Virus record (IMG/VR): IMGVR_UViG_3300042890_000645
Span: 1-31,963 of that record
Strand: one strand, 5' to 3'
DNA length: 31,963 nt
DNA from: a virus
Shown here: piece after piece, positions 11,641-29,439 of the stretch
Numbering within the stretch: the first letter of the stretch is position 1
Layout: every line of letters begins with the position of its first letter
Position numbers and translations under genes: made by a program
Notes under the pieces: generated by a model
The model's input: the letters and a program-made list of their open reading frames with translations, nothing else
What the model was told of the DNA's origin: nothing
Database searches by the model: none

Positions 11641-12909
11641 CTATATCATTGTGTTTACTCCAACTCCGTATAATGCAGTCGTATCATAAGATTGGAAAGA
11701 TAAAATATCTACCGCTCCTGTGATTGGTGTTGCAATATATGGGAAAGCTTGAGGAAATTTAAGTGTTTGACTATAAGTTAATGTTCCGTTTGTTGCCGGT
11801 TGTGTTATTCTTAAACCAATAGTTTCACCAGGTTGAACATTCGTTGCAGTTAAATGTGTATTTGTTCCACCAACTAATGTTAATGTAAAGAAATTACCTA
11901 ATGAACAATCCATACTTGCTGTTTGAGAACTGATTGTCAAAGGAACTACTACACCTCTTACACTTCCACTAAATACTTCATTACCAATAAATGTATTGCT
12001 ACCCGTTGTTGCATAACTTCCAGTAAATGATGATAGAGTATTTAATCTATTATCAGTTGATTGCGTGTATGCATTGAATGATGAAGTATTTAATTTTTGA
12101 TTAATTTGATTTTGTAAGAAAGATGCAGTTTGTGTTAACTCTGCTTGTGTTGCAAAGTCAGCCTGTAAAGAACTACTAAATGCTTCTAATTGGTCTAATC
12201 TTAAATCAACTGATGTAGAGAATGGGCCTTCTAAAAAGTCTAATCTAGCATCTACACTTTGAGAAAATAAAAATACATTACCAACACCACTTAAAGTTGA
12301 TGATGAAATATTTCCTAAAACATTTAAGTTGCCTGTAATACCCATAGAACCGGTCAAAGAACTGCTTCCTGACATTATCACATCACCGATAAGGGTTTGT
12401 GTATCTGCAGTAGTGTCTCCCAAAATATTAGACCCAGATGAGAATATAACGGATGAACTTTCTATCGTTGTTATTATCTCATATGCATTGATTGTTCCAC
12501 TAACTACCAAATTGTTCGTTAAAAACATATTTGATGCAGTGATTTGATTACTTACTACTAAACTACCTGTTAAAGTAGTTGCACCACTCACTTCCAAATT
12601 ACCATTAACTCTTACATTATCATTCACAGTCACCTTACCTTCTATGTCAAAGGTTCCTGAAACAATAAAGTTTCCATCAACATCTAAATCACCATTAATA
12701 CTTAAATCTTCATTTACTATTACAGATTTAGAGAAGAACATATCTCCTGATGATGATATAGCAAATCCTGCATTATATCCTAAACCATCTTGCACCGTTA
12801 TATAACCTTGCGGTGCTGGTGCTAGTGGTGGAAAAAATGAACTATCACTTCCTAAATGTAATAAGGATTGATACGACTGCGATACATATAATGAACTTAA
12901 ACTTCCCAT
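11641..12909 (-). CDS. Tail fibre with beta-helix stem and shared C-terminal tip
   Basis: The 422-residue protein starts MGSLSSLYVSQSYQSLLHLG. After a short N-terminal attachment part come repeating 'G-x-L-x-V-x-G' strands (about 68-205; LSINGDLDVDGNFIVSG), typical of a trimeric beta-helical fibre stem, then a helical segment with LDQLEAF and LQNQINQKL (about 225-290), a SYATTGSNTF motif and a beta tip (about 325-422). The tip aligns with the last 100 residues of the 1037-residue fibre (19463-22576), including FxxPGExI and DILSF-type motifs. No catalytic motif is seen. Role: host recognition. Confidence 0.75.
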   Translation of the reverse strand: MGSLSSLYVSQSYQSLLHLGSDSSFFPPLAPAPQGYITVQDGLGYNAGFAISSSGDMFFSKSVIVNEDLSINGDLDVDGNFIVSGTFDIEGKVTVNDNVRVNGNLEVSGATTLTGSLVVSNQITASNMFLTNNLVVSGTINAYEIITTIESSSVIFSSGSNILGDTTADTQTLIGDVIMSGSSSLTGSMGITGNLNVLGNISSSTLSGVGNVFLFSQSVDARLDFLEGPFSTSVDLRLDQLEAFSSSLQADFATQAELTQTASFLQNQINQKLNTSSFNAYTQSTDNRLNTLSSFTGSYATTGSNTFIGNEVFSGSVRGVVVPLTISSQTASMDCSLGNFFTLTLVGGTNTHLTATNVQPGETIGLRITQPATNGTLTYSQTLKFPQAFPYIATPITGAVDILSFQSYDTTALYGVGVNTMI

Positions 12910-28464: not shown

Positions 28465-29283
28465 TTAATTTATGAATTGTAATGTGTTAGAAAAATAATT
28501 TCTCCAGTTATTTAACACTGCTTCATCTTCTTCATAACAAATCTGAAGTATGTTATCAAAACTTTCATAATCATCTTTTATATCAGCTAATAACTTCTTT
28601 GCAGCTGGAATATTATTATCATCAATATATTCAGTTAACTTATCTAAAGTTTGTTTAGCTAACTTTATATTCATATTATGATTTATACTATTATCATTTA
28701 TACTATTATCAGCATATTCTTGTTCTAGTATTTTATTATATTCTTCTATATAATACTCTTCTAATAATGCTTCAGTTTCATCTATTTTCATTTTATTTAA
28801 TTCAGTTTTATTTACTTTTATTTCCTTTACTTTACTTTCTTGGTTAATGTTTACATTATCATAGTTATTGTATACATTAACTCCGTTATTGATAGGTTTT
28901 TGTTGTAATAACTTCATTCGTTTAGAGTTATTGATACAATAACCTTTTCTTCTACTCAATACATCTTCTTCCAATCTTTCAGTTAATTTATCACAATGTA
29001 ATATGTTTCCTGTTAATTGAAGTAAATTTAATTTAACACAGTAATCAATAATTTCTGATAATTCATCTGCATCCAAATCAAAATCAGGAGTTAGTAATTC
29101 AATGTTCATTTCACTCCATTCAATTTCAAAGTAATCGTTTTCAGTTAGTAATTCTAACATCATAATATAAGTTGCATATCCTAATGCCTTATACTTTCTT
29201 CTTAACGCTTTTACTTTCATATCATTCCTCATATTACAATCATGTGAGAAATAATCAGCGTTGTGTTTAATTGGTCGTGCCAT
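28465..29283 (-). CDS. Replication-type protein (DUF4373, Lin1244/Lin1753-like N-terminus)
   Basis: The 272-residue protein starts MARPIKHNADYFSHDCNMRN. The N-terminal domain (about 1-115) shows the DUF4373 pattern: YFSHD...MRNDMKVKALRRKYKALGYATYIMMLEL in part, DYFEIEW, a helix-turn-helix-like region, and DVLSRRKGYCINN (about 107-119). This domain occurs in phage and plasmid replication initiators of Bacteroidota and Firmicutes. The C-terminal part is acidic and low in complexity with Asn/Ile-rich helices, likely for partner (helicase or loader) binding. It has its own promoter and a structured leader (29295-29389). Confidence 0.75.
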   Translation of the reverse strand: MARPIKHNADYFSHDCNMRNDMKVKALRRKYKALGYATYIMMLELLTENDYFEIEWSEMNIELLTPDFDLDADELSEIIDYCVKLNLLQLTGNILHCDKLTERLEEDVLSRRKGYCINNSKRMKLLQQKPINNGVNVYNNYDNVNINQESKVKEIKVNKTELNKMKIDETEALLEEYYIEEYNKILEQEYADNSINDNSINHNMNIKLAKQTLDKLTEYIDDNNIPAAKKLLADIKDDYESFDNILQICYEEDEAVLNNWRNYFSNTLQFIN

Positions 29284-29294
29284 AATTTAATTAA

Positions 29295-29389
29295 AAACCC
29301 CATTGAACTATGAAATCTCACTTCATAATTCTCAGGGGTTTGTTTTGGAATTTCTTCCGTTATCTTTAATACAATGTGAGATATTGTAT
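29295..29389 (-). promoter_or_regulatory. Leader RNA with predicted kissing hairpins and terminator-like stem
   Basis: In the transcript from copy 3 of the promoter: hairpin 1 has stem ATACAAT/ATTGTAT (29389-29383 with 29375-29369) and a 7-nt loop ATCTCAC (29382-29376). Hairpin 2 has stem TATGAA/TTCATA (29327-29322 with 29314-29309) and a 7-nt loop GTGAGAT (29321-29315). The two loops are perfectly complementary. Hairpin 2 sits inside an outer stem AAACCCC/GGGGTTT (29341-29335 with 29301-29295), followed by a short T run and the replication gene start at 29283. Looks like an attenuator or small regulatory RNA. Confidence 0.65.
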
Positions 29390-29409: not shown

Positions 29410-29439
29410 AATATACGAATAATATTTCACTTTACCAAA
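29410..29439 (-). promoter_or_regulatory. Bacteroidota-type promoter, copy 3
   Basis: TTTG (29439-29436), 20 bp, TATATT (29415-29410) on the minus strand; the -7 lacks the final TG of the consensus (TATATTAC). Flanks match copies 1 and 2 closely. It would start transcription near 29402, giving a leader of about 118 nt before the replication gene. Confidence 0.75.

Follow-up and report, generated by a model that had tools for sequence, protein, structure and literature searches.

A leader RNA with two mutually complementary hairpin loops precedes replication-initiation genes of uncultured phages: a candidate transcription attenuator

The locus described here raises the question of why a short leader between a phage promoter and a replication gene should carry two hairpins whose loops can pair with each other along their whole length. 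It was found in the IMG/VR record IMGVR_UViG_3300042890_000645, of which positions 1 to 31,963 were analysed; this whole stretch of 31,963 nt is called the window. Its minus strand presents, in order, a promoter, hairpin 1, a linker with a mini-hairpin, the terminator-like hairpin 2, T residues and the ATG of the replication gene (Table 1). A preliminary description of the window had placed two hairpins with perfectly complementary 7-nt loops between promoter and replication gene, and the minus-strand sequence bears this out: within a leader of 100 nt the two 7-nt loops are exact reverse complements. The terminator-like CCCC/GGGG base and the T residues before the start codon are likewise present, while the apical stem of hairpin 2, given earlier as 6 bp, proves to be 10 bp long. 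The base of this hairpin (AAACCCC/GGGGTTT) pairs 29341-29335 with 29301-29295, a 3x3 internal loop separates CCCC/GGGG from the apical stem, the loop lies at 29321-29315, and the hairpin ends about 10 nt upstream of the ATG (29283). The promoter is one of three copies in the window, and those at 28276-28247 and 115-86 have no such leader downstream. Judging by the promoter type, the hosts are probably Bacteroidota. No integrase was found among the window proteins scanned (a subset), and a putative tail-region protein (11641-12909) contains a bactofilin-like stretch scoring exactly at the Pfam cut-off.

Table 1. Elements of the leader and the adjoining gene in the window.
Feature	Coordinates	Strand	Basis or remark
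Promoter TTTGG-N17-CGTATATT	29410..29439	-	Bacteroidota-type -33/-7; layout alike in relatives
Hairpin 1, ATACAAT[ATCTCAC]ATTGTAT, 7-bp stem, loop 29382-29376	29369..29389	-	Sequence, fold, covariation
Linker TAAAGATAAC	29359..29368	-	Sequence conservation
Mini-hairpin GGAA[GAAA]TTCC, GNRA-type loop	29347..29358	-	Fold, covariation
Hairpin 2, terminator-like, AAACCCC-TGA-GAATTATGAA[GTGAGAT]TTCATAGTTC-AAT-GGGGTTT	29295..29341	-	Sequence, fold, covariation
T-tract 3' of hairpin 2	29293..29297	-	Sequence; 5 T, short
Replication-initiation gene, 272 aa	28465..29283	-	Pfam Lin1244_N; PHROG 2562

Structure prediction, named in the preliminary description as a check, gives a fold far beyond that of shuffled sequence: the leader region reaches -28.6 kcal/mol against -13.9 +/- 3.0 kcal/mol for dinucleotide shuffles (z -4.9). 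The minimum-energy fold partly closes the hairpin 2 loop by two weak pairs, and a kiss between the loops would need these opened. Chance pairing of the loops is ruled out by shuffles, by a scan of phage loci and by covariation. Across 60 dinucleotide shuffles of the window, complementary-loop hairpin pairs arose only twice in total, and a test for full-loop complementarity over both strands of 1.1 Mb of phage loci was passed by family members and a single chance palindrome. Elsewhere in the window the loop 7-mer is not above chance frequency. The match can be taken as real because relatives keep their loops complementary while both loops change.

These relatives comprise, first, the leaders of class I, found in about 25 IMG/VR contigs with 11 distinct loop pairs. 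In L002, whose initiator is 78% identical over the first 161 residues, the loops are wholly different (GGTCAG/CTGACC) and again complementary. Further members were collected with a DNA pattern built from the linker and the terminator base, the loops not being used, and L129, L122 and L380/L381 came through protein searches. Hairpin 1 loops of the class read ATCTCAC, ATCGCAC, GTTGGAT, GTAGGAT, GTAGGCT, GTGAGAT, CTCGTAC, CTCCCAC, CTGACCA, GGTCAG and ATGCGAG, all of them exactly complementary to the hairpin 2 loop of their own leader. The covariation that had been named as a check is present in the homologues, with complementarity always kept. In an alignment of 10 sequences built without structure (A3), all 70 cells of the loop-loop helix are Watson-Crick and 5 of its 7 pairs show changes on both sides; for the whole structure 98.9% of cells are paired, against 35-46% with the partners slid, and none of 500 shuffles reached the covariation score (class II likewise). 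The linker motif AAGATA is invariant among the class I seed members, with a similar TTAAAGA in class II and one departing member, L380; a relaxed AAGATA scan gave, beyond L122/L123, chance matches only. The loop pair of L173 (5307-5409) is that of the window swapped between the hairpins, hairpin 1 carrying GTGAGAT, so that the leaders of L173 and the window could pair like with like if brought together in one cell.

A second class extends the design. Class II leaders occur upstream of other initiators in about 18 contigs with 7 distinct loop pairs, and have a hairpin 1 with a stem of 4-5 bp and a large loop, and a linker of the ATTAAAGA type. Their terminator stem is long (AAGGGTTGTCAAA/TTTGATGACCCTT in L469), is interrupted by a large internal loop and ends in a short apical stem. 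Loop-loop pairing spans 8-9 bp, the hairpin 1 cores being CATCTCAC, CACTTCAC, CCTTCAAC, CCTCTTAC, CCATTCAC, TCCTTCAC and CCTCTAAC. Among 14 sequences, both sides vary at 6 of the 8 kissing pairs, and Watson-Crick pairing holds in 112 of 112 cells; the two invariant pairs are partly imposed, because the search pattern included the GT with which the paired segment of the hairpin 2 loop begins. Alignment A8 has the row of L394 and one stem column out of register, so that the stem concerned is undercounted. L364 and L392 represent two further architectures, with kisses of 9 and 7 bp. Over all architectures 20 distinct loop pairs were recovered, 20 of 20 fully Watson-Crick, and this number is a better guide than contig counts, since related contigs are not independent. 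More distant leaders of Lin1244-type initiators (L154:2850-3000 and L147:2850-3000) have a 5' part with long complementarity to the terminator loop (ACACCCTTGCAA in L154; CACACGACTA and ATGACACAC in L147), which may reflect a shared principle at work in other hosts. Another recurrent leader, in L125, L366, L374, L397 and L401, has a promoter followed by a terminator-like hairpin about 100 nt upstream of the initiator start codon, and a near-identical, non-coding-looking stretch (CTCACTCGCAGATTAGAGTAAATTCGAGTATAAACAGC...) in L461 (70-270), L465, L475 and L476 matches the class II pattern by chance.

The position of the leader is as constant as its pairing. Complete leaders each lie 5-25 nt upstream of a start codon, nearly always that of a replication initiator. 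The genes downstream encode Lin1244_N proteins, a second Lin1244-like group, a MAKRFTD group, DUF6291, a DUF1376-like protein and HTH-like proteins, of which the MAKRFTD and HTH-like ones were assigned by resemblance and position, without a family match. A class II copy in L458 stands not before an initiator but before a gene homologous to the one next after the L387 initiator. Loop type is independent of protein type: GTTGGAT precedes both DUF6291 and MAQRFTD genes, and L173, L188 and L223 combine one protein group with three different loop pairs. Standing before several initiator types, the leader is not tied to one protein. The initiators of the window (28465-29283) and of L232 (1274-1897) have unrelated N-terminal parts and C-terminal 68 residues that are 72% identical, a picture that, as judged from the sequences, is one of domain swapping behind the same leader. 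In L378 (1941-2010) the promoter is joined directly to the initiator start codon, with the ~99-nt leader exactly absent, and the initiator shares 97% identity over 156 aa with its counterpart in the leader-bearing L226. The absence of exactly this segment beside a near-identical initiator marks the leader as a removable cassette, and the existence of leaderless relatives makes it dispensable. All evidence is computational and derives from uncultured phage contigs; by it the anatomy, loop-loop covariation, position and modularity of the leader are established.

Members have a terminator-like hairpin and a T-run between promoter and gene, and with promoter, terminator and gene so close together, the obvious point of control is whether transcription passes the terminator. 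The leader is probably an attenuator that acts in cis on transcription of the phage replication-initiation gene. RNA polymerase starting at the promoter just upstream would make hairpin 1, followed by the upper stem and loop of the terminator hairpin, and the two loops would pair; closure of the CCCC/GGGG base over the U-tract would then decide between termination, giving a leader RNA of about 110 nt, and continued transcription into the replication gene. In the switch we prefer, the cis kiss would form first and strain the closing of the terminator base, favouring read-through. As leader RNAs accumulate, they would pair in trans (hairpin 1 with the hairpin 2 of another molecule and the reverse), releasing the strain and damping replication-gene expression as copies build up. 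A rough worm-like-chain estimate gives an effective loop concentration of about 1 mM before the terminator base closes; after closure it falls to 1e-7 M in class I, and the distance is not spannable in class II, assuming a straight coaxial stack. The model suggests that the terminator is harder to complete while a cis kiss holds, and that trans pairing with another leader would relieve this opposition; the effect may also have the reverse sign.

A site in L387 (4481-4602; L479:2880-2990) counts in favour of the terminator role: a class II-type terminator hairpin stands alone there, with no hairpin 1, between convergent genes or operons, a place suited to a terminator at the end of an operon. 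The loop retains GTGAAG, and these 6 nt are complementary to the loop of that phage's own hairpin 1. Against the attenuator count the short U-tract of the window (5 T), the closure of part of the hairpin 2 loop in the minimum-energy fold, the straight coaxial stack assumed in the chain model, the dispensability seen in leaderless relatives, and the fact that sequence by itself does not tell pairing in cis from pairing in trans. The earlier proposal that a kissing complex controls the outer stem gains from the attenuator-like anatomy and the covariation, while termination itself, the sign of its effect and the choice between a cis and a trans step are what we infer. A ribosome-mediated attenuator is disfavoured, as the aligned leaders contain no conserved ATG-started ORF that could serve as a leader peptide. 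It is tempting, though distinctly tentative, to go further and regard the leader RNA as its own antisense RNA: since it carries a loop together with the mate of that loop, each terminated molecule may engage the nascent leaders of sister genomes.

Of other readings, the preliminary description had itself offered a short stable RNA ending at 29295. A terminated leader acting as a stand-alone small RNA, the kiss merely stabilising its fold and the replication gene just lying downstream, would suit an element with its own promoter and terminator and a compact, covarying fold. We consider it unlikely as the whole story, because the leader always adjoins a start codon, nearly always that of an initiator, and the 31 phage records searched whole hold no second complete copy, the one extra match being a lone terminator hairpin; a terminated leader could still act in this way. 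It is similarly improbable that termination or translation is set by a protein or small ligand bound to the kissing complex or to the conserved linker, after the manner of protein-dependent leaders and riboswitches. Conservation of the AAGATA-type linker and the mini-hairpin beyond the needs of pairing alone speaks for such a sensor, but loops and internal loops differ greatly among members, no candidate ligand or protein emerged, and the initiator is an unlikely binder, since one leader can precede initiators of different N-terminal types. Control of translation rather than termination, with the kiss stabilising a block in front of the start codon, fits the distance of about 10 nt between hairpin and ATG; the T-run 3' of the stem in aligned members and the class II-type hairpin standing alone between convergent operons make it very unlikely. 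Finally, a DNA-level element, whether an inverted repeat recognised by a repressor or initiator or a piece of a replication origin, can practically be dismissed, for although complementary loops are also an inverted repeat and the site adjoins a replication gene, the order of promoter, hairpins, T-run and start codon is fixed, the core changes completely among relatives with pairing kept, and the stems tolerate G-U pairs and hardly any A-C mismatches on the leader strand (53 versus 4), an asymmetry by which selection appears to act on the sense RNA rather than on the DNA.

Transcription attenuation before a replication gene is familiar, and the question is whether this RNA is already known. 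Searches with Rfam covariance models, C4 (RF01695) and plasmid antisense RNAs included, brought the window leader nowhere near any gathering score at E up to 10, and the leaders of six relatives had no Rfam match, which rules out a known Rfam RNA. DNA searches of isolated phages returned no leader, and the initiator proteins have only remote matches in the phage collection and none among plasmids. A DNA-pattern scan of bacterial genomes gave no true member among the matches listed; searching 395 Bacteroidota genomes with the models yielded nothing, a weak negative given strict filters and few candidates scored. A literature search, mostly of freely readable papers and without preprints, found no description of such leader RNAs.

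Several known systems come close. RNA I and RNA II of ColE1 kiss through fully paired 7-nt loops whose specificity diverges fast, as here; they are opposite-strand RNAs, and what they control is a replication primer instead of a terminator upstream of an initiator gene. The C4 antisense RNA of P1/P7 comes from the same transcript as its target and controls an antirepressor gene, and it differs from the leader in this target and in structure. In plasmid pT181 the attenuator precedes repC, the replication initiator gene. Kissing hairpins there set premature termination, with an opposite-strand RNA as partner (PMC3753616). The pT181 system thus resembles the leader in kissing hairpins and in termination before an initiator gene, whereas its partner is an antisense RNA and it has an antiterminator stem; here both partners lie in one RNA and no antiterminator stem is evident. 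A search of the plus strand near the leader for a promoter consensus of the Bacteroidota type found none. In phage P4, the CI RNA pairs with complementary parts of its own leader and causes premature termination before the replication genes (PMC4825925). P4 immunity (CI RNA, seqA/seqC) shares complementary segments within one leader upstream of phage replication genes, but P4 is a temperate satellite that uses a processed trans RNA and a longer leader, while here two hairpins in about 100 nt pair loop to loop and one loop caps the terminator hairpin itself. Heterotypic double-kissing dimers (MoMuLV SL1-SL2; phi29 pRNA) show one RNA with two mutually complementary loops pairing within or between molecules (PMC7357161), with fewer base pairs per kiss and with roles in genome dimerisation or DNA packaging. 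The leader RNAs share the logic of P4 and pT181 and differ from them in architecture.

Taken together, two RNA families absent from Rfam and two single architectures separate the promoter from the replication initiator gene in many uncultured phages, probably of Bacteroidota, and they offer a compact attenuator design with loop pairs of 7-9 bp and 20 natural specificities. They provide a testable, RNA-level account of how such phages set the expression of their replication genes, and L378, as a natural leaderless sibling, makes the effect of the leader directly testable. If the leader is its own antisense RNA, the control of phage replication would depend on dose and co-infecting phages that share the loop pair would be excluded, and paired divergence of the loops would create new compatibility groups, much like plasmid incompatibility.
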